From Anseongella ginsenosidimutans (GTDB lineage Bacteria > Bacteroidota > Bacteroidia > Sphingobacteriales > Sphingobacteriaceae), in the NCBI RefSeq assembly GCF_008033235.1, contig NZ_CP042432.1, forward strand, positions 3,658,001 through 3,722,000: 64,000 nt of DNA. Reading direction: 5' to 3'. Each line of letters starts with the position of its first letter. The stretch's first letter is position 1. Both the position numbers and the translations under genes were made by a program. Of the stretch, positions 26,927 through 63,698 are shown one piece after another. The notes under the pieces are model-generated. The model worked only from the letters and a program-made list of their open reading frames with translations. It was not told where the DNA came from and ran no database searches.

Positions 26927-28764
26927 CTTGAGTTTGACACGCACTTTCAAAAAAACACTATAAATCGGCCAATGACAGACGTATTGGGGGTTTGTCGGAA
27001 AAAAGTGTAGAGAGCCGATGTCAGCGGAGGCCCTTTACAATCAATTGCAGGGTGCTTATTTTTGTGTAATGGCTTTTTTGAAAGTAGAGCGCAAACCATC
27101 GGGCACCTATTTACGCATTCTGGAAAGCTACCGGAATGCCGAAGGCAAGCCGACCAGCCGGGTGCTGTATTCGTTGGGGAAAGCCGAAGATTATACCCCG
27201 GGGCAGCTTCGCAGAATGGGTATTCAGCTTTACGAACTGGGCGGAGGTGAAGTGAAAGCGCTTTTAACCGGTCAGATCGAAGAGCTTGCCCGTTACAATT
27301 ACGGATTTGCCCAGGTTTATAAGCGGGTGTTTTCCCACTACGGGCTGGATATTCTTTTACGGCGGATCGCCCGCAAACAAAAGCTGGAGTTCGACCTGAG
27401 GAATGCCGTGCTATTGATGCTGCTGGAGCGGCTGCAGGAACCCTCGAGCAAACGAAGCAACTGGTTGAACCAGCAGGAGTACGCCGGGGTTGATCCGGTA
27501 TCGCTGCATCATTTGTACAGGGCGCTGGATCGCCTGGCCGAGAACGAGCGTTTGATCCAGGAGCGGATCTTTCAGACCGGACGGGACATGTTCAGCCAGC
27601 GGCTGGACGTTGTATTTTACGACGTGACCACGCTTTATTTTGAGAGCGAGGTCGAGCAGGAAGGAGCGCTGCGTCAAAAGGGGTTCAGCAAGGACGGAAA
27701 AATAGGCCGCACACAAATCCTGTTCTGCCTGATGATCGATAAAGAGAAGAACCCGATCGGTTATCGCATCTTTAAGGGAGACACCTTCGAAGGGCACACC
27801 TTCGGGCAAGCGCTTTGCGATCTGAAAGCGCATTATCAGATCGACAAGGTCATCGTGGTGGCCGACCGGGGCATGCTCTCGAGAAAGAATATTGACCTGA
27901 CCACCGAGAACGGCTTTGAGTTCATCGTGGGAGAACGGTTAAAAGCACTTCCCCGCAGCGTGCAATCAGCCTTGCTCGATCATTCGGCCTTTCAGCACGA
28001 ATGGGTGTACTCCGATCACACCGGCGAGGAAATCAAACTCCGGTATAAGATGATCTCTCATGAGGGTCGAAAAATTATCGCCACCTGGTCGGCCAAGCGG
28101 GCCGCAAAAGACAAATCCGATCGGGAAGAACGGCTCCAGACTGCCCAAAAACTGCTGCAACATCCTTCGCTGATCGACAAAAAAGCAGGACGTTTCTTTC
28201 TGCAGAAGCAGGGCGGCGGGTCCTACGCGCTGGATCAGGAGAAAATCGCCCGATCAGAAAGATACGACGGGCTGCTGGCCATCAGCACCAACAATACCAC
28301 CCTGAGCGTCCCGGCCGTGTTGGAACAATACAAACAGCTTTACAAAATCGAACATTCGTTCCGGACCTTTAAAAGCCACCTGGAAACCCGTCCGATGTTC
28401 CACTGGACCGACAAACGGATCCAGGGACATATCTGTCTTTGCTACATCGCCTTTACCCTGCAGAATTATGTTCTGCAGAAAATCAACCAATCCCAGGTGA
28501 AGCTCACCGAAAACGAGCTGCGCAAAACCCTGGAAAGAATGCAAGTGAGTTTGCTGCAACACAATCAGGAGCAAGTCTGCATTCGTTCCAAGCCCCAGGG
28601 GAAAGAAGCCGTTCTGCAGCAAAAACTGGGATTGAAACAACTCCCGCCCATTCTTCCCCAAACGCAGCTAGCTAATTACCTATAAATCCTCATTTGTAGA
28701 GAGCCAATCAGAGAACCCACTACTGAGTATCAGTTAGTTAAGTCCCAATCGTGTCAAACTCAAG
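26927..28764 (+). mobile_element. IS1634-type insertion sequence, copy A, 1838 bp
   Basis: The ends are inverted repeats beginning CTTGAGTTTGACACG on both sides. One transposase gene is read left to right. Copy B at 40073-41910 has the same length, in the opposite orientation, with an apparently identical protein. The flanking direct repeats are 418 bp. Long, variable target duplications are a known peculiarity of IS1634 and IS1549. Confidence 0.92.
27069..28685 (+). CDS. IS1634-family DDE transposase (IS4 group)
   Basis: About 538 aa from the ATG at 27069 (AFLKVERKPSGTYLRI, the family start); the frame is open from 27018. DDE-type motifs: DVTTLYF (first Asp), VVADRGMLS (second Asp) and YKIEHSFRTFKSHLETRP (Y-2-R-3-E-6-K type, with the Glu). 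Complete, without frameshift, so probably active. Confidence 0.93.
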   Translation: MAFLKVERKPSGTYLRILESYRNAEGKPTSRVLYSLGKAEDYTPGQLRRMGIQLYELGGGEVKALLTGQIEELARYNYGFAQVYKRVFSHYGLDILLRRIARKQKLEFDLRNAVLLMLLERLQEPSSKRSNWLNQQEYAGVDPVSLHHLYRALDRLAENERLIQERIFQTGRDMFSQRLDVVFYDVTTLYFESEVEQEGALRQKGFSKDGKIGRTQILFCLMIDKEKNPIGYRIFKGDTFEGHTFGQALCDLKAHYQIDKVIVVADRGMLSRKNIDLTTENGFEFIVGERLKALPRSVQSALLDHSAFQHEWVYSDHTGEEIKLRYKMISHEGRKIIATWSAKRAAKDKSDREERLQTAQKLLQHPSLIDKKAGRFFLQKQGGGSYALDQEKIARSERYDGLLAISTNNTTLSVPAVLEQYKQLYKIEHSFRTFKSHLETRPMFHWTDKRIQGHICLCYIAFTLQNYVLQKINQSQVKLTENELRKTLERMQVSLLQHNQEQVCIRSKPQGKEAVLQQKLGLKQLPPILPQTQLANYL

Positions 28765-40072: not shown

Positions 40073-41910
40073 CTTGAGTTTGACACGATTGGGACTTAAC
40101 TAACTGATACTCAGTAGTGGGTTCTCTGATTGGCTCTCTACAAATGAGGATTTATAGGTAATTAGCTAGCTGCGTTTGGGGAAGAATGGGCGGGAGTTGT
40201 TTCAATCCCAGTTTTTGCTGCAGAACGGCTTCTTTCCCCTGGGGCTTGGAACGAATGCAGACTTGCTCCTGATTGTGTTGCAGCAAACTCACTTGCATTC
40301 TTTCCAGGGTTTTGCGCAGCTCGTTTTCGGTGAGCTTCACCTGGGATTGGTTGATTTTCTGCAGAACATAATTCTGCAGGGTAAAGGCGATGTAGCAAAG
40401 ACAGATATGTCCCTGGATCCGTTTGTCGGTCCAGTGGAACATCGGACGGGTTTCCAGGTGGCTTTTAAAGGTCCGGAACGAATGTTCGATTTTGTAAAGC
40501 TGTTTGTATTGTTCCAACACGGCCGGGACGCTCAGGGTGGTATTGTTGGTGCTGATGGCCAGCAGCCCGTCGTATCTTTCTGATCGGGCGATTTTCTCCT
40601 GATCCAGCGCGTAGGACCCGCCGCCCTGCTTCTGCAGAAAGAAACGTCCTGCTTTTTTGTCGATCAGCGAAGGATGTTGCAGCAGTTTTTGGGCAGTCTG
40701 GAGCCGTTCTTCCCGATCGGATTTGTCTTTTGCGGCCCGCTTGGCCGACCAGGTGGCGATAATTTTTCGACCCTCATGAGAGATCATCTTATACCGGAGT
40801 TTGATTTCCTCGCCGGTGTGATCGGAGTACACCCATTCGTGCTGAAAGGCCGAATGATCGAGCAAGGCTGATTGCACGCTGCGGGGAAGTGCTTTTAACC
40901 GTTCTCCCACGATGAACTCAAAGCCGTTCTCGGTGGTCAGGTCAATATTCTTTCTCGAGAGCATGCCCCGGTCGGCCACCACGATGACCTTGTCGATCTG
41001 ATAATGCGCTTTCAGATCGCAAAGCGCTTGCCCGAAGGTGTGCCCTTCGAAGGTGTCTCCCTTAAAGATGCGATAACCGATCGGGTTCTTCTCTTTATCG
41101 ATCATCAGGCAGAACAGGATTTGTGTGCGGCCTATTTTTCCGTCCTTGCTGAACCCCTTTTGACGCAGCGCTCCTTCCTGCTCGACCTCGCTCTCAAAAT
41201 AAAGCGTGGTCACGTCGTAAAATACAACGTCCAGCCGCTGGCTGAACATGTCCCGTCCGGTCTGAAAGATCCGCTCCTGGATCAAACGCTCGTTCTCGGC
41301 CAGGCGATCCAGCGCCCTGTACAAATGATGCAGCGATACCGGATCAACCCCGGCGTACTCCTGCTGGTTCAACCAGTTGCTTCGTTTGCTCGAGGGTTCC
41401 TGCAGCCGCTCCAGCAGCATCAATAGCACGGCATTCCTCAGGTCGAACTCCAGCTTTTGTTTGCGGGCGATCCGCCGTAAAAGAATATCCAGCCCGTAGT
41501 GGGAAAACACCCGCTTATAAACCTGGGCAAATCCGTAATTGTAACGGGCAAGCTCTTCGATCTGACCGGTTAAAAGCGCTTTCACTTCACCTCCGCCCAG
41601 TTCGTAAAGCTGAATACCCATTCTGCGAAGCTGCCCCGGGGTATAATCTTCGGCTTTCCCCAACGAATACAGCACCCGGCTGGTCGGCTTGCCTTCGGCA
41701 TTCCGGTAGCTTTCCAGAATGCGTAAATAGGTGCCCGATGGTTTGCGCTCTACTTTCAAAAAAGCCATTACACAAAAATAAGCACCCTGCAATTGATTGT
41801 AAAGGGCCTCCGCTGACATCGGCTCTCTACACTTTTTTCCGACAAACCCCCAATACGTCTGTCATTGGCCGATTTATAGTGTTTTTTTGAAAGTGCGTGT
41901 CAAACTCAAG
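40073..41910 (-). mobile_element. IS1634-type insertion sequence, copy B, 1838 bp
   Basis: Same ends, length and transposase as copy A (26927-28764), but inverted. It sits inside the DUF4350-like gene with 149-bp direct repeats. The high identity of the copies points to recent transposition. Confidence 0.93.
40152..41768 (-). CDS. IS1634-family DDE transposase, copy B
   Basis: Same protein as at 27069-28685 over its full length, starting at the ATG at 41768; the open frame reaches 41819. All DDE motifs are present, so both copies are probably active. Confidence 0.93.
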   Translation of the reverse strand: MAFLKVERKPSGTYLRILESYRNAEGKPTSRVLYSLGKAEDYTPGQLRRMGIQLYELGGGEVKALLTGQIEELARYNYGFAQVYKRVFSHYGLDILLRRIARKQKLEFDLRNAVLLMLLERLQEPSSKRSNWLNQQEYAGVDPVSLHHLYRALDRLAENERLIQERIFQTGRDMFSQRLDVVFYDVTTLYFESEVEQEGALRQKGFSKDGKIGRTQILFCLMIDKEKNPIGYRIFKGDTFEGHTFGQALCDLKAHYQIDKVIVVADRGMLSRKNIDLTTENGFEFIVGERLKALPRSVQSALLDHSAFQHEWVYSDHTGEEIKLRYKMISHEGRKIIATWSAKRAAKDKSDREERLQTAQKLLQHPSLIDKKAGRFFLQKQGGGSYALDQEKIARSERYDGLLAISTNNTTLSVPAVLEQYKQLYKIEHSFRTFKSHLETRPMFHWTDKRIQGHICLCYIAFTLQNYVLQKINQSQVKLTENELRKTLERMQVSLLQHNQEQVCIRSKPQGKEAVLQQKLGLKQLPPILPQTQLANYL

Positions 41911-46831: not shown

Positions 46832-47863
46832 CTATCTTTTAAAACATTTCAGTAGGCTCTCATCGACAAAATACAGGTGGTTTCCTGCCCTTGAGCAAGC
46901 CACATACAGTTTGTTTTTAGTTCTTGGGGAAAGTTCGTGTAATTTATTGGAACTGTATTTTTTAAATGTGCCTTTGTTAAGCACGACACATATATCAACA
47001 AAGGCATCTTCCCCCTTGCATTCGCCCCAGTTTCTTGAATGGCAGGCATATTTATAATGCTCTTGATAGAAGATTTTGACTATCTCACTATTATGAAAAA
47101 TCGTTGCTGCCGTGGACGTGTCACTGATGACCTCAACTGTTGAAGGTTCCGTCTTGTGGGAATGGATTTCTATTTTTAGTTTCTCCCTGATAAAATCACA
47201 AACCGTCGGGCTACACCGGAAAGTTTTGCTCAATGATTGTGCGTCCGGAACAAGCCCCATCTTTTTAAATTCCGCCTGATACCGATCATAGTCATCATGT
47301 AAGGTAGCGTTTGTATTACTATCCCGGCTTGTATCAAAGGTGTGCTGAAAGAAATCTCCGACGAAAAGCATTGTAAGATTGGCCTTACTGATGCTTTTAA
47401 GGAAATCGAAATCATGGCCACCAAAGTCTTGTACTTCGTCTATGTAGAGACAATCGTAATATTTTTCCAAGCGGGCATTTACCTCGTCCAAAATATTCTC
47501 TACTTCCAGTAATTTCGATAATCTGTTGTGGTAAAGGCGCTGGCCTTTAGATAGGTAATAATTTTTATTGTCCCGTCGAAATGTTCTTGTGTATTGAGGT
47601 GGTATATCCCAATGTAACCCCTTCGACTTCACTTTGTGGGATAGCAAAGGCCTGTAGCAAAAATTGTGGAGAAACGTAAAATAGGATACCACCTTTATAT
47701 TTTTCGGCATATAGCCGAATTTCTCCTGGATGCGTTTTTCCAAGTTCCTTATATTGTTAATTGTATAGGTTATTATAAGAGCCCGGTGGTTAAGGTCCAG
47801 CTCGCTGATAATAAGAAAGGTTTTCCCTGACCCAGCAACCGAAAAAATTATTCTTTTATCCAC
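46832..47863 (-). CDS. Compact UvrD-like SF1 helicase (Gabija GajB-like)
   Basis: 343 aa, short for the family. Walker A VAGSGKTF is at residues 8-15, motif II CLYIDEVQDF near residue 140, a QSLSKTFRCSP motif IV region near 215, and a C-terminal KLYVACSRAG (motif VI). Its start overlaps the OLD-nuclease stop by 16 bases. In Gabija the GajB helicase pairs with the GajA OLD nuclease in the same order. Defence function is inferred from pairing and family. Confidence 0.85.
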   Translation of the reverse strand: MDKRIIFSVAGSGKTFLIISELDLNHRALIITYTINNIRNLEKRIQEKFGYMPKNIKVVSYFTFLHNFCYRPLLSHKVKSKGLHWDIPPQYTRTFRRDNKNYYLSKGQRLYHNRLSKLLEVENILDEVNARLEKYYDCLYIDEVQDFGGHDFDFLKSISKANLTMLFVGDFFQHTFDTSRDSNTNATLHDDYDRYQAEFKKMGLVPDAQSLSKTFRCSPTVCDFIREKLKIEIHSHKTEPSTVEVISDTSTAATIFHNSEIVKIFYQEHYKYACHSRNWGECKGEDAFVDICVVLNKGTFKKYSSNKLHELSPRTKNKLYVACSRAGNHLYFVDESLLKCFKR

Positions 47864-49407
47864 GTAAAAGCGTTTCGTATGTAATCCGGTGTCGCTATCT
47901 GTTCTGCCCTGGTATTTAGCAATTCAAATGCGCAGTCTGCTTTGTTTTTAAGCATATAGTCCTGTACCGACAGAGATCTACGTTTTTGAACGAATATTTG
48001 GTCGCAGATTGTTTGATTGTCCTGATAAACCGATACTTCAAAAGTGTATCTGTCATTGCAATTCTCGTAAAAAACATTGATCAAATCATCGGTATATTCT
48101 GAATACCTTTCGAGGCAGTTACTTTGGAAGTCGTGGTCATTGTCTCTTATGACGGCTGTCTTGATTTTAAGTAACCTCGCTATGTCCAAATATCTTTTAA
48201 AGCTGGTCCCATCAACCGAAATAATATGTACACCGTCCTCATAAGGTTTCTTACTGGTGACATTGATATATAGCGCTTCCATGAGTATGAACTCTGCGTC
48301 ACCTTCAACCAGGATAACCTTTTGGGAAAGGATAAACTCCAGTATATTGTGATCAGGTGCTTTCATGAAGAACTTGGCGGTATCTTCCGGTAATGCATTC
48401 AGCCCTATAGAACGAGTATCATTACTATTTAGCAGAATGGCTTTCCTTAAATCCAATCTGCTACATATCAGGCTGCTATGTGTAGCAATGAATAATTGTT
48501 TGCTTTCCGATTCATCAATCTTCGCAATCAATTTTTTCATATTGACATGGCTCAGATGGTTTTCAGGCTCCTCCAATAAAACTGCATCCAAGCTGCCTGC
48601 TTTGTTTTTCAATGCAAAAGCGGTCTTGATAAAGCATTGATTACCTTTTCCTTTGCGATCTATATCAATACCGCCTTCCGTTATCGTTAAGTCCGTTTCA
48701 AGATTTGCTTTCGTACTCGTACGTATCGAAAACTGATAAGTAGATTGTTTGTCATTCATTTCCTTTAGAACAGTGTTTTTGAAATTCTCTTTGTGCTTCC
48801 TGTATTCATTGTGATGCTTGTACTTCTCGGTCTCTTCTACGGAGGAATTATAAAGCGCTTTTATATAAGACCGTGTGGCATATTCATTATTTATTTGGGT
48901 ATTATCGAGAAGGATATGGCTTAGGTATTTTCTAAACCCCGAATAGTTTTCACCGGAGAATGTTTTGAATGATATAGAATAAAACTCAAACGGAAATATG
49001 GTATTGTTTTGAGCTAAAATGTCTTTAATGTGCTTGCTGTAATCCTCCAATGGAGAACAGACCAATCGTAATCCATCATAGGAGGCCCCCTCGGAATTGA
49101 CCTTTCCATTCAGATCTTCGTTACTTTGGTCGGTCAAATACAGTTCAATATATAGAACGGGTAGGTCTGCATAGCCCCTTCTCCCAGATAAAAAATTATC
49201 GATGGCCGCGACGTTGAACAGGCTATCCAGCCCCAACGTTTCGACTTTGCTCCGGCTGCCACTCAAAACAAGATCAATAGCCGTCAGAATGCTGCTCTTG
49301 CCAGCTTCGTTGTCTCCAATGAGGACATTCAGTTGTGGATTAAACTGAGTTTCAAAGGCCTCAAACCTTTTAAAATTCTGGAGTTTAATCTTTGTGATTA
49401 ATTTCAT
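47848..49407 (-). CDS. OLD-family ATPase-TOPRIM nuclease (class 2, Gabija GajA-like)
   Basis: 519 aa from the ATG at 49407 (MKLITKIKLQNFKRFE); the frame is open to 49446. An ABC-type ATPase: Walker A IGDNEAGKSS near residue 35, and Walker B VLLEEPENHLS near 277. It is followed by a TOPRIM nuclease: VEGDAE near 366, DGTSFKRYL near 398 and RDNDHD near 423. Class 2 OLD proteins are next to a UvrD-like helicase, as here. The likely role is DNA cleavage in anti-phage defence. Confidence 0.9.
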   Translation of the reverse strand: MKLITKIKLQNFKRFEAFETQFNPQLNVLIGDNEAGKSSILTAIDLVLSGSRSKVETLGLDSLFNVAAIDNFLSGRRGYADLPVLYIELYLTDQSNEDLNGKVNSEGASYDGLRLVCSPLEDYSKHIKDILAQNNTIFPFEFYSISFKTFSGENYSGFRKYLSHILLDNTQINNEYATRSYIKALYNSSVEETEKYKHHNEYRKHKENFKNTVLKEMNDKQSTYQFSIRTSTKANLETDLTITEGGIDIDRKGKGNQCFIKTAFALKNKAGSLDAVLLEEPENHLSHVNMKKLIAKIDESESKQLFIATHSSLICSRLDLRKAILLNSNDTRSIGLNALPEDTAKFFMKAPDHNILEFILSQKVILVEGDAEFILMEALYINVTSKKPYEDGVHIISVDGTSFKRYLDIARLLKIKTAVIRDNDHDFQSNCLERYSEYTDDLINVFYENCNDRYTFEVSVYQDNQTICDQIFVQKRRSLSVQDYMLKNKADCAFELLNTRAEQIATPDYIRNAFTWIKE

Positions 49408-49432: not shown

Positions 49433-49627
49433 TCAGGTTTGGTCAAAATGACGGAACATAATCCTCATCACCTGCCCGCCCTTTGCTATAGCAGTCACTC
49501 TCACGTTTTCAATCCGTGTAAAAAAGGCTTGCAATAGTTTGCGACCATTTATTAAAAAGAGCCCGCAACTATCACATAAGAAGACTAGCTCGGTTGATAC
49601 TATTAAGCTATATCCTTTCAGGGGCAT
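49433..49627 (-). CDS. Possible small protein upstream of the OLD nuclease
   Basis: 64 aa, ending 26 bases before the nuclease start, on the same strand. It is somewhat hydrophobic at the N-terminus and has a TRIENVRVTAIAKGG segment. No family recognised. It could be spurious. Confidence 0.35.
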   Translation of the reverse strand: MPLKGYSLIVSTELVFLCDSCGLFLINGRKLLQAFFTRIENVRVTAIAKGGQVMRIMFRHFDQT

Positions 49628-49688: not shown

Positions 49689-50630
49689 TCAATCCTCATA
49701 ATCATCTAATTCGTCGAAATTTATATCTGATCCTAATGCCATGAACTGCTGAACTCGCTCAGGCTCTGTTTCAGTTTCCTCATAGAGATAAATCATCTCG
49801 TCTATGGCGTCTCGATCCTTGTGAATGTTAAAAATGCTCTCAAAGTATTTATTCGAACCTAGCTGCTCAAACTCTAATGGCTCCAGTGAGTTGATGTATT
49901 CTCCGAACTCCCCAGAAAATTCACTTTTAAGGAGAAAAGCGCAGACCTCCCGCTGCATAAGCTTTTCCTTTTCAAATGTAAATTCCTTTGCAATAAAGAT
50001 TTTATACGCCTTTGAATTATGGGCTATTTCATAAGTATAGATGTTAAGTCGACCGGCTTCTTGCCGAACTATTTGGTATAATTGATCAACCAATTTACCA
50101 ATGACTCGCGCAAATAAATTCTTGATTCGATCGGAATTTGGAGTTGGAAAAAACGCCTCATTTTGTATCTTAATCCCAAGTTCTTCGGATATGAATTCCG
50201 TAAGTTGCCCTTTATCTTGGGGTGGGCGGTAAACCGAGGAAAGATTATATCTATCGTATCTGGTAGATTTGTAAAATTTATCCAATAAAGCGAGAAATCT
50301 GTTTAACTGCTTACTGGTTTTTACTTCCCTCTTTTCTTTAATTCTTCGCCATAATTCCAAATGACTATGTGTAATTAATGACTTTTCAAAATCCTCAACC
50401 GAAGCTGTACCATCATGTTCTATCAAAATTAGGGCAATCTTTTGAAGTCGTTCAACTCCGACAGATATATGATACAGGAACTCAAAACACTCGTGTTCAT
50501 AATAGAGCGACTCCATATTCTCCAAAACGAATATGGAATTGTAAATAAAGGAATCCGAAATTTGTAATTCCGTTCCTAATCGAAAATTTTTCCAAAAGAG
50601 ATCCGGGTCGTTAAGTAAATCTTTCTCCAT
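49689..50630 (-). CDS. Uncharacterised protein, element accessory
   Basis: 313 aa from the ATG at 50630 (MEKDLLNDPDLFWKNF); the upstream frame to 50696 overlaps the DUF2188 gene. Mostly helical, with an acidic C-terminus (FDELDDYED). No catalytic motif was recognised. It follows the DUF2188 gene by 7 bases and precedes the Gabija-like pair on the same strand. Confidence 0.7.
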   Translation of the reverse strand: MEKDLLNDPDLFWKNFRLGTELQISDSFIYNSIFVLENMESLYYEHECFEFLYHISVGVERLQKIALILIEHDGTASVEDFEKSLITHSHLELWRRIKEKREVKTSKQLNRFLALLDKFYKSTRYDRYNLSSVYRPPQDKGQLTEFISEELGIKIQNEAFFPTPNSDRIKNLFARVIGKLVDQLYQIVRQEAGRLNIYTYEIAHNSKAYKIFIAKEFTFEKEKLMQREVCAFLLKSEFSGEFGEYINSLEPLEFEQLGSNKYFESIFNIHKDRDAIDEMIYLYEETETEPERVQQFMALGSDINFDELDDYED

Positions 50631-50637
50631 GTAACGT

Positions 50638-50868
50638 TTATCCTTTAGGGGGATACGGGTCGTTTCCATAAGTCCGCTCCTCCTGGATTTTGCCATCCTG
50701 CTTGTGCACGATTATCGAGGAATTCCCTTGTTTCTTTGCCAAGTCTATGGTCTTACCAAGTGTTTCTTCTTTGGTATTCCCTGTGACTGAAGCTCGCTTT
50801 CCGTTCTCAAGCATACCTTGCCAGCCTTCTTCTGTTTTGGTGACGTGATACGTTTTTCTCTTTGCCAT
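50638..50868 (-). CDS. DUF2188 protein
   Basis: 76 aa with the DUF2188 pattern: HVTKTEEGWQ, KRASVTGNTKEET, and SSIIVHKQDGKIQEERTYGNDP..P. These small proteins are widespread, often on mobile elements, and uncharacterised. It heads a two-gene unit with the 313-aa protein. Confidence 0.9.
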   Translation of the reverse strand: MAKRKTYHVTKTEEGWQGMLENGKRASVTGNTKEETLGKTIDLAKKQGNSSIIVHKQDGKIQEERTYGNDPYPPKG

Positions 50869-60291: not shown

Positions 60292-62361
60292 CTACATTGA
60301 TAAAGCATCCCCTTCCAGTCCCTGGCCCTGCTCCTTATTCCCCTGCTCCCGGCACTCCCCCGCTTCCAGTCCCTCCTGTTTCTCGGCATTTTTCCGCGCC
60401 AGCTCCTCCGCCCGCCGTTGCCGCGCCTCAATCCGCCCGCACTCCCTTTTCAGCAGCTCATAAATGTCCTCTTTGATCTGGTAATAATTCTCCATCACAT
60501 CGCGCCGGGTCACCTGCCCCACCGCCGGGATCTCCCTGTACCCCGCCTCCTCAGCAGCAATCGCCGCATGATCGTTCTGAATTTCGGCATGAAACATTTT
60601 CAAACGGATCTTTTCCTGCGGCGTATCGGCCACCATCCCCACAAACTCCCCCGAAGACAGCGAAGCAATCCGCGAAGCAGGAATCGCATACTCCAGCTGC
60701 CGCGACCGGGACACCGACACATCCGAGCTCGAAATGCTCCGACTCTCCCGCTCCTGCATGATCTTCCCAAAACTCTCGCTCAGCCGCTTCGCCGTCTCCC
60801 CGGTCACCTGCCCGCTAATCACGTTACCGACAATCCCGGTCAGCACGCTTGCCTGCTCAGCCCCGTAATCTTTTTTAAGCTGGCTGAAATCCTGCACGGC
60901 AAGGGCCGTCGCTACTTTATTGGAGCGCGCAGTAGCAATCAAGCTGTCCATGCCTGCGAAATAGATCGTCGGAAATTCATCGAATACCAGGCTGCTTTTG
61001 AGCTGGTTTTTCCGGTTCACCAGTTTAATCATCCGGGAGATATACAGCGAAAGAACAGCCCCATAGACCTGGAGCTTTTGCGGGTTGTTTCCAAGGCACA
61101 CAATCTTGGGCGCTTTCGGATTGTTGATATCCAGCGTGAAATCATTTCCGCTCAGCACATAATACAGCTGGGGAGAAGCCAGCCTGGCCAGGGATATCTT
61201 TGCCGAAGCGATTTGTCCCTCCACCTGCGGCATCGCCTTGCGGAGATAAGCCGACACAAAAGGATTGATCAGCACCTGGATCTCTTCCTCGCTCATCAGT
61301 AAGGCAAACAAGCGATCATAATCGGTTTGCATCAACTCGATCGCATGAGGAAGCGTGCAGTAGCGCCCCTGCTCGTATTTTTTCAAGTACCAGATAATCG
61401 CCGCCAGAAAATTAATAGCGCTTTCCACGAAAAAATCACCCTGCTTCTTAATCCAATCCCGGTTCAGGCCCAACATGATGGTTCTGGATGAATCGGTTGC
61501 ATCGGTGAGGTCGTCCATGCTTTCAGGATACAGCGGATTGCACCGGTGCAGGATCTTATCGAAGTTAATTACCCAGAAGGTGGGCTTTACCTTGTAATTT
61601 TTGTAATATTTTAATAGCGTATTGTAGGCGATGAGCGAGAGGTCATCAAACTTAAAATCGTACAGGAGCATCGAAAAGCCCTTGCGAAGGTGCTGGTCAA
61701 TTATGTGCCGGATCACAAAGTAAGACTTGCCCGACCCGGGCGTACCTGCTACCAGCAGCCCCCGGAACGGATTGACAATATTAATCCAGCTCTTGCGCAG
61801 TTCACTTTTCAAACGATAGCGAGCTGGCAGGTTCACGCTGTATTCGTTCGTCAAAAGACGCTCCTCCTGCGGAAACGTTTCGCCAGCCGTGTTAAACACG
61901 TCCGTATCCAGGCTACTGTTGACCAATCGCGACAGCAGCGTACCCCCGCTCAGGATCAACAGGTAACCCGCGGCCGTAATGCCAATATAGGAAACAGCGC
62001 GGATCGTCTCCCTTACCGGAAGGTACAGGACCCACGCGCTCGCAAAGTACAGGCACAAGCCACCTAGCAAATAGGCCAGGCTGCTGCTGATTTGAACCTT
62101 CTCGTCCTTTTTCCCTTTTGCCGCCAGGAGCGTGATCCCCAGCAGCAGCAAAGCAGCCAGCTTGGGAATGACGACGTTTTGAAACAATCCCGTCCGCGCG
62201 ATTTGAGCGACGAGCCGATCGGTAATTTCTGCCGTAAATCCCCAGTCGATAAACGCCTCATAACAAGTGAGATAAACGTGAATTGCCAGCACGAAAATGC
62301 TGATCAGGCGCGTAAAATCAGCGATTTTCCGTAAGCCTTGCACATCTTCTCCGGTGTTCAT
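60292..62361 (-). CDS. mobC: Type IV coupling ATPase of Bacteroides MobC/TraG type
   Basis: 689 aa. N-terminal membrane helices, Walker A VAGTPGSGKSY near residue 205, Walker B SSLVFDEFPT near residue 450, TraG/VirD4-like core. C-terminal tail rich in Glu, Arg and Lys. It couples the relaxosome to the secretion channel. It is the third gene of the mob operon, 29 bases after mobB. Confidence 0.92.
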   Translation of the reverse strand: MNTGEDVQGLRKIADFTRLISIFVLAIHVYLTCYEAFIDWGFTAEITDRLVAQIARTGLFQNVVIPKLAALLLLGITLLAAKGKKDEKVQISSSLAYLLGGLCLYFASAWVLYLPVRETIRAVSYIGITAAGYLLILSGGTLLSRLVNSSLDTDVFNTAGETFPQEERLLTNEYSVNLPARYRLKSELRKSWINIVNPFRGLLVAGTPGSGKSYFVIRHIIDQHLRKGFSMLLYDFKFDDLSLIAYNTLLKYYKNYKVKPTFWVINFDKILHRCNPLYPESMDDLTDATDSSRTIMLGLNRDWIKKQGDFFVESAINFLAAIIWYLKKYEQGRYCTLPHAIELMQTDYDRLFALLMSEEEIQVLINPFVSAYLRKAMPQVEGQIASAKISLARLASPQLYYVLSGNDFTLDINNPKAPKIVCLGNNPQKLQVYGAVLSLYISRMIKLVNRKNQLKSSLVFDEFPTIYFAGMDSLIATARSNKVATALAVQDFSQLKKDYGAEQASVLTGIVGNVISGQVTGETAKRLSESFGKIMQERESRSISSSDVSVSRSRQLEYAIPASRIASLSSGEFVGMVADTPQEKIRLKMFHAEIQNDHAAIAAEEAGYREIPAVGQVTRRDVMENYYQIKEDIYELLKRECGRIEARQRRAEELARKNAEKQEGLEAGECREQGNKEQGQGLEGDALSM

Positions 62362-62390: not shown

Positions 62391-63698
62391 TCAGGACAGG
62401 CCTTGATCGACCTGTGGCTCCTGCCGCTTCTTTCGTTTCTTCTTTTTTCTCGGGTGATAGAAATTGCTATACTCGGTTTCCTGTTTCAATAAGGTTTCAA
62501 GGACGCTCGTGGGGGCTGGCAGCTCAATGGTCACCTCGGGCAAGGCTTCTTTTTCACCTTGCACCTGCAAGGAAGGCAGGAAGCGGCTGGCGGGTAATGC
62601 GGGTGGGATCAAAGGTTCCTTCTTGGGCGCTTTTAATCGATCGGTGCTGCTCAGTCCCGCCGTGAGCGCTTTTGCGCTATAGGCCTTACCCAGGTCGCTG
62701 CCGTTAAAGACTGTTTTGTGCAGGTGATCCACAAAGGTGACCCCGTAAATTAACCCCTCGGCGTTCTGTCGAAAGAGGATGGCTACCTGCTGCTGTTTCA
62801 GCTCCTGCGCGAAGGTGGCTTTGGTGAGGTCGTGATAGTTGCCGAGCACCTGGTCAATGCGCCGCTTCAGGCTTTCCCTGTGCGGGAGGCGCTTTTCTTT
62901 ATTTCGCGCAAAGGTTTTTTCTATCTTATCCAGGGTGGGCCTTCCCGCCAGGGCGCTGGCTTTAAACGGGATGCCGATGCGCTTACCCTCTTCATTAATG
63001 ATGGAGTACACCAAACCGCGTTTTTGAAACATTATGGTGTCTTCTTTTCCTCTATCGGCAGTGAGGTTAAATTGTTTCAGTGCGGCGTTGTATTCGGCAA
63101 GGGAGGTAAATTTATAGGTTTTTAAAACGTGAGAGACCACGTTATAAATGGCGCGTTTGGTAGGCGTTTTGCCGTAGTGGGCTTTTTCCAGCGGGATGGG
63201 GTTGATATCAAGCTCCTGGCTTTTATTGCGGCCTTCGGCTTTGGTGAGATTGAACTCATTTTCCAATTCTTTTCGGGCGGTTTCTGAAAGCGTGCGGCCA
63301 ATGCCGTGAATGTCGATGCGCTTTCCGTCGGGCTTTATGTTGGTGGTGACGATGTGAATATGCGGGTGGTTGGCATCATGGTGCTGGTAGACCAGGTAAG
63401 GCTGTTCGCCGAATCCGATGCGCTGCATATAGCGGGTGGCGATTTGTTGAAAAGCGGCGGTTGTGAGTTTGTCGGTGCGGTCAAAGTTTAACAGGATGTG
63501 TAGGGCGTTGGTTTTTACCCGGCTGTTTGCTTCGGTGAGGTGCTCAAAACGGGTGAGTTTGGCTTTTAGGTCGAGGTTGTCCAGGTCGGTGCCAAACCGG
63601 CTGGCCATAATGAGGGAAGCCTGTCCTTCTGAAACTTTGTGTTCGTTATAGAGCAATAGGCCTCTGATGTTCTTTCCGCTGATTATTTTTGTAACCAT
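62391..63698 (-). CDS. mobB: Relaxase MobB of Bacteroidota conjugative elements
   Basis: 435 aa. The N-terminal relaxase domain has a Tyr-rich region and the metal-binding HPHIHIV (in QHHDANHPHIHIVTTN) near residue 115. The C-terminal part is basic (PRKKKKRKKR at the end). It nicks the transfer origin. The start overlaps the mobA stop by 16 bases. Confidence 0.93.
   Translation of the reverse strand: MVTKIISGKNIRGLLLYNEHKVSEGQASLIMASRFGTDLDNLDLKAKLTRFEHLTEANSRVKTNALHILLNFDRTDKLTTAAFQQIATRYMQRIGFGEQPYLVYQHHDANHPHIHIVTTNIKPDGKRIDIHGIGRTLSETARKELENEFNLTKAEGRNKSQELDINPIPLEKAHYGKTPTKRAIYNVVSHVLKTYKFTSLAEYNAALKQFNLTADRGKEDTIMFQKRGLVYSIINEEGKRIGIPFKASALAGRPTLDKIEKTFARNKEKRLPHRESLKRRIDQVLGNYHDLTKATFAQELKQQQVAILFRQNAEGLIYGVTFVDHLHKTVFNGSDLGKAYSAKALTAGLSSTDRLKAPKKEPLIPPALPASRFLPSLQVQGEKEALPEVTIELPAPTSVLETLLKQETEYSNFYHPRKKKKRKKRQEPQVDQGLS

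Follow-up and report, generated by a model that had tools for sequence, protein, structure and literature searches.

The question raised by this locus is whether an OLD nuclease gene overlapped by the gene of a helicase of only 343 residues encodes a Gabija system, and what the small size of the helicase reflects. The pair lies in the window, that is, the whole stretch of 64,000 nucleotides of the Anseongella ginsenosidimutans genome that was analysed. The open reading frames were found exactly as described in the first-pass annotation, which had been made from the DNA letters and had proposed an OLD nuclease and an overlapping short helicase on the same strand: the OLD frame starts with an ATG at 49407 and ends at 47848, and the helicase frame starts with a GTG at 47863 and ends at 46832, both on the minus strand (Table 1). 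An alternative TTG start of the OLD gene is present at 49446, 39 nt upstream of the ATG; the homologues align to the ATG. Comparison with Pfam identified, above the cut-offs, AAA_15/AAA_21 and OLD-like_TOPRIM domains in the 519-aa protein and a UvrD-helicase domain in the 343-aa protein (38 bits compared to a cut-off of 23). The proposed Gabija plan was borne out by the GajA and GajB profiles of PADLOC v2.0.0 (2023 library), which match both proteins near full length. GajA PDLC00102 (532 positions) covers residues 4-516 of the nuclease with 379 bits (E=6.4e-114), and GajB PDLC00148 (369 positions) covers residues 1-333 of the helicase with 163.5 bits (E=1.7e-48). These near full-length matches and the recurrence of the gene overlap at other loci confirm that the pairing of an OLD nuclease with a short helicase is real and beyond chance.

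Whereas the compact size of the helicase stood, the accompanying view that known GajB proteins have roughly 500 residues did not. PADLOC v2.0.0 already includes GajB models as short as 365 and 369 positions, which the window GajB matches best, and a short GajB is therefore not new. These short Gabija models (GajA PDLC00102/PDLC00098, GajB PDLC00148/PDLC00140) describe the same two genes, near full length and of the same small size, and are fitted by relatives of the pair on E. coli plasmids. The window GajB nevertheless reaches 163 bits with PDLC00148 compared to about 470 for Agrobacterium and some Bacteroidota relatives, and it thus represents a sister branch of the core of this model. A retron and a PARIS or Septu system were ruled out, as the best PADLOC matches were GajA and GajB by a wide margin and no reverse transcriptase or HNH protein was detected among the neighbouring proteins scanned.

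Table 1. Coordinates of the gene pair, its motifs and neighbouring features in the window
Feature	Position	Strand	Basis or remark
gajA-type gene, OLD nuclease of 519 aa, ABC ATPase and Toprim	47848..49407	-	ORF call, PADLOC, Pfam, homologue alignment, structure search
gajB-type gene, SF1 helicase-like protein of 343 aa, subdomains 1A-1B-2A without 2B	46832..47863	-	ORF call, PADLOC, model
Overlap of the two genes, 16 nt, GTGGATAAAAGAATAA	47848..47863	-	Recurs at other loci
GajA Walker A/P loop GDNEAGKS, residues 31-38	49294..49317	-	G31, N33, E34, G36, K37 invariant
GajA Walker B region LEEPEN, residues 278-283	48559..48576	-	E279, E280 invariant
GajA Toprim glutamates VEGDAEF, residues 367-373	48289..48309	-	E368, E372 invariant; putative metal ligands by analogy to BpOLD (PMC6755086)
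GajA Toprim DxD (DND), residues 422-424	48136..48144	-	Alignment
GajA second metal site TFE, residues 455-457	48037..48045	-	Alignment, spacing
GajA candidate catalytic lysine K489	47941..47943	-	Invariant; role by analogy to BcGajA K541, BpOLD K562
Helicase motif I GSGKT, residues 11-15	47819..47833	-	Invariant
Helicase motif II DEVQD, residues 142-146	47426..47440	-	D142, E143, Q145, D146 invariant
Helicase motif V KG, residues 283-284	47012..47017	-	Invariant; IV-V gap is the place of the absent 2B
Helicase motif VI VACSRAG, residues 321-327	46883..46903	-	Alignment
Fic-domain protein of 524 aa	44697-46271	-	PADLOC candidate defence family PDC-S24, 654.9 bits, almost end to end
335-aa protein	49689-50696	-	Sub-threshold HEPN match, 19.1 vs 22 bits
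MobC homologue, Bacteroidetes conjugative transposons	60292-62361	-	Homology
MobB homologue, Bacteroidetes conjugative transposons	62391-63698	-	Homology

The SF1 core of the helicase is present: motifs I to VI were all found and the RecA-like cores align to PcrA and UvrD. Motif I GSGKT, the DExQD box, G169/D170, R216, K283/G284 and R325 are invariant in the 14 helicases aligned. Motifs I and II are separated by 131 residues in compact GajB and 142 in BcGajB, and motifs IV and V by 68 and 203 residues, respectively; in BcGajB, subdomain 2B comprises residues 306-416 (PMC10822852). The AlphaFold model of the helicase has a mean pLDDT of 86, and VIA-align placed 310-322 of its 343 residues on PcrA, UvrD and Rep, across the whole fold. 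Compact GajB thus retains subdomains 1A, 1B and 2A and is devoid of 2B, and it is this missing subdomain that makes the helicase short. With only ten residues ahead of GSGKT, the protein could not accommodate a Q motif, which is likewise reported to be absent from BcGajB (PMC10822852). The window helicase thus resembles UvrD, Rep and PcrA in its 1A, 1B and 2A fold and in motifs I-VI, but unlike them it has neither 2B nor N-terminal room for the Q motif and, at the loci that were examined, its gene forms a pair with an OLD gene. The short GajB of Agrobacterium (L027 5623-6762) has a cysteine cluster, CNCPDC, in the linker from motif IV to motif V, at the site that 2B would otherwise occupy.

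A protein about 150 aa shorter than BcGajB could also be the product of a truncated, decaying gene, and one homologous locus (L014, 6001-7100) does carry, next to an intact gajA, a compact gajB whose frame is lost after about 290 aa through a frameshift and stops. Full-length homologues of several phyla, however, have a constant length of 340-348 aa with invariant motifs, and the overlap with the nuclease gene is retained. This constant length rules out a pseudogene or a truncation, and we consider decay of the helicase gene extremely improbable.

The first-pass annotation had remarked on the shortness of the helicase; the nuclease proved to be reduced as well. In the alignment of 15 nucleases, all seven OLD active-site residues (E368, E372, D422, D424, T455, E457 and K489) are invariant, and the same holds for K37, E280 and H310 of the ATPase; the roles of the Toprim ligands have been named for BpOLD (PMC6755086, PMC10822852). 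The DxD motif and the second metal site are 33 residues apart in the window GajA and 29-48 residues apart in 19 of 19 short pairs, compared to 71-97 residues in the six long GajA proteins in which this spacing was measurable (the 584-aa Legionella long GajA was left out because its DxD reads DFD and was missed by the pattern). The reductions of GajA and GajB coincide in all 19 compact pairs and, in the seven long pairs compared, GajB and GajA are long together. In BcGajA, the stretch that separates the DxD from the second metal site contains a lysine-rich loop (436-442) and a helix (474-493), and alanine mutation of the loop yields a non-specific enzyme (PMC10822852). Compact GajA carries no comparable lysine cluster, so that cutting without site specificity is predicted for it, with the caution that the lysines of this stretch are not conserved in every long GajA either. 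As to the C-terminal helical domain, which in class 2 OLD proteins supplies the metal-B ligands and the lysine, the window GajA has these ligands, the lysine and a tail of 64 residues (67 in BcGajA), but the predicted model is poor in this part.

Class 1 OLD proteins (P2 Old, T. scotoductus OLD) likewise combine an ATPase and a Toprim domain, and T. scotoductus OLD is of similar overall size. Their genes, however, stand alone, whereas the window OLD gene overlaps a helicase gene, and in TsOLD an arginine (R487) takes the place of the class 2 lysine, which is invariant in the window family. At the family level no best match fell outside class 2 OLD, in agreement with the earlier assignment, although the Toprim segment that lengthens class 2 OLD proteins is shortened here. 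The Gabija system of Bacillus cereus VD045 (GajA 578 aa, GajB 494 aa; PDB 8SM3) shares with the window pair the order of an OLD gene followed by an SF1 helicase gene and the same catalytic residues, and is its best structural match. The two systems differ in that 2B is missing from the window GajB, the interval from the DxD to the second metal site has about 46 residues fewer in the window GajA, and the genes, which lie 1 nt apart in B. cereus, share 16 nt in the window. Because both 2B and the long Toprim segment are absent, the pair was not filed as a canonical long Gabija.

The structural kinship was obtained with Foldseek against the whole PDB, in which the top match of the helicase model was GajB (8tk1_F, E=6.6e-10) and the top matches of the nuclease model were GajA (8u7i_A and 8sm3_A). 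It should be noted that pLDDT falls under 50 in several stretches of the Toprim part of the nuclease model and that, with this half weak, the nuclease match rests mainly on the ATPase part. The 50 best VIA-align matches were PcrA, UvrD, Rep and others, and we do not take as evidence the absence of a Gabija chain among these. In profile-profile comparisons, made with profiles of unequal depth, compact GajB scored 95.7 with long GajB and 60.3 with UvrD/Rep, and compact GajA scored 193.5 with long GajA and 84.9 with P2 Old. Neither BcGajA nor BcGajB was recovered by sequence searches of the PDB, run by phmmer with each protein and by hmmsearch with the family profiles, a result that limits the kinship at the sequence level and not the structural match.

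Unrooted gene trees of both genes separated short from long forms by a long branch with support of 100/100, and the compact lineage is therefore deep. When UvrD, Rep and HelD were added to the helicase tree, long GajB was weakly monophyletic (56.5/69), and with these proteins or P2 Old added the trees did not settle the order of short forms, long forms and outgroup, nor did they show an ancestor exclusive to short and long. Tentatively, and with rather less than even confidence, the compact pairs may be regarded as a second Gabija type, distinct from the first, with functional coupling between the loss (or primitive absence) of 2B and that of the long Toprim segment. Such a type would be an ATP-driven nuclease with a choice of substrate and a trigger unlike those of the Bacillus system. 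The very long branches of the fully supported split in both trees, the three-way relation left open by UvrD, Rep and HelD and the failure of phmmer and hmmsearch to find BcGajAB are also compatible with a separate origin, in which an OLD nuclease and an SF1 helicase without 2B were brought together independently of the ancestor of GajA and GajB; the compact pair would then be a separate type working similarly. We consider this origin unlikely, as the profile scores favour long GajA and GajB over P2 Old and UvrD/Rep (with the reservation on profile depth), Foldseek ranked Gabija chains first for both proteins and the gene order is identical.

The pair was then followed in other genomes. When 84,980 species genomes were scanned with a sequence pattern, 17 loci were obtained, in Bacteroidota, Pseudomonas and other Pseudomonadota, Acidobacteriota and a Chlorobiota bin; at all 15 of them having enough upstream DNA, an OLD gene precedes the helicase gene and overlaps it by the same 16 nt. 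Gene order and overlap were identical at eight further loci, taken from IMG/VR viral contigs, one of which (L041) has MAKR in place of MDKR and another (L039) an interrupted OLD frame. Besides the window, gene order and overlap are thus kept in 27 of 27 pairs, namely the 15 genome loci, the eight viral contigs, two plasmid pairs, a Bacteroidota genome (L038) and a Listeria-associated pair (L028 2433-5119), which is 31-33% identical and comes from an unverified "Listeria phage" contig from wastewater. The two genes are accordingly inherited together in three phyla and on plasmid and viral contigs. Such an overlap suggests that the two genes may be translationally coupled and produced in a fixed ratio. 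At E<=1e-20, PDLC00148 matched four of 395 Bacteroidota genomes, including that of the window, and long GajA PDLC00078 at E<=1e-60 gave no match in 198 Bacteroidota genomes, in which the controls were likewise unmatched. In PLSDB, the helicase was at least 80% covered in 1,738 records and the nuclease at least 80% covered in 1,679, counts that reflect sampling and whose weaker matches include other Gabija branches; the top matches are 46-51% identical, and the matching records belong mainly to Klebsiella and Escherichia, the majority being typed conjugative. Homologues of the neighbouring genes (Fic, the 335-aa HEPN-like protein, DUF932, a 123-aa protein, cupin and MobC) were sought by tblastn, and none was found near relatives of the pair; the unit therefore consists of two genes.

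With a probability of about 0.7, we regard the pair as a compact Gabija-type complex directed against invaders. The best supported reading is that of an OLD nuclease which would be regulated and loaded by its SF1 ATPase partner, as in Gabija, and we infer complex formation, DNA cleavage, a trigger and phage protection for the compact pair. The ATPase part of GajA would mediate its oligomerisation, and the two-metal site of its Toprim domain would cleave DNA. GajB, a reduced SF1 motor made of 1A, 1B and 2A, would hydrolyse ATP and bind GajA by the same 1A/1B surface as in the solved Bacillus complex. In that complex, the GajA ATPase contacts GajB 1A and 1B and interface mutants lose defence (PMC10781630, PMC10822852), and 2A/2B were too flexible to be traced in one cryo-EM map (PMC10822852). 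Since the contacts run through 1A and 1B, docking of a GajB devoid of 2B appears plausible. As there would be no 2B rotation available for regulation, unwinding of duplex DNA is a less likely task for such a GajB than sensing exposed DNA ends or gaps, or loading at them, in an ATP-dependent manner. To our knowledge, published studies have detected no helicase activity for BcGajB. The published triggers differ, being nucleotide depletion in Bacillus and DNA ends unprotected by RecBCD in PA14 (PMC12407980).

The value of these observations is a structural diagnosis and not a new system, since databases already label such genes Gabija. The compact pair is a variant within existing database models whose structure has no prior description in our open-access literature search, which returned no short GajB or 2B-less Gabija beyond work on the known Gabija systems. 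A widespread lineage devoid of 2B and also of the Toprim segment that holds the BcGajA specificity loop amounts to a natural domain-deletion experiment on the essentials of Gabija, and conclusions drawn from the Bacillus complex, such as sequence-specific nicking and 2B rotation, may not extend to some 1,700 plasmids, mostly of Klebsiella and Escherichia.

The pair had also been described as carried and spread by a conjugative element. Carriage by mobile DNA is in line with the MobB and MobC homologues and with the related plasmids, most of which are typed conjugative, but the term conjugative remained unproven for this region, as a search of the entire 4.3-Mb genome detected no TraG (TIGR03783) (the TraN search was run without a positive control). 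Ordinary chromosomal genes, for example purK, lie 10-16 kb beyond the window, and with Mob genes present and TraG not found the region is at most a mobilisable or decayed element. The pair could serve such an element, destroying competing plasmids or linear DNA or processing the element's own DNA, with phage defence being secondary. The Mob genes and the relatives on about 1,700 plasmids fit this proposal, and so does the finding that, on both plasmids that were read, the pair has replication or partition genes no more than a few kb away. Its further occurrence on chromosomes or large contigs of Pseudomonas and on viral contigs, the absence of any tested neighbour common to the loci and the anti-phage role of the characterised relatives make this function quite improbable in our view, and the anti-invader complex remains the preferred reading.

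Other neighbours of the pair are DUF932, a UPF0758 (RadC) N-terminal gene and IS elements, MobC and MobB lying at the right. The Fic protein is a second candidate defence gene adjoining the pair, and a Fic gene also immediately precedes the long-form Gabija of an Enterococcus plasmid (L026). Two transposase genes of 555 aa each, at 27018-28685 (+) and 40152-41819 (-), the second of IS1634 type, are separated by about 11 kb, possibly in a composite arrangement.
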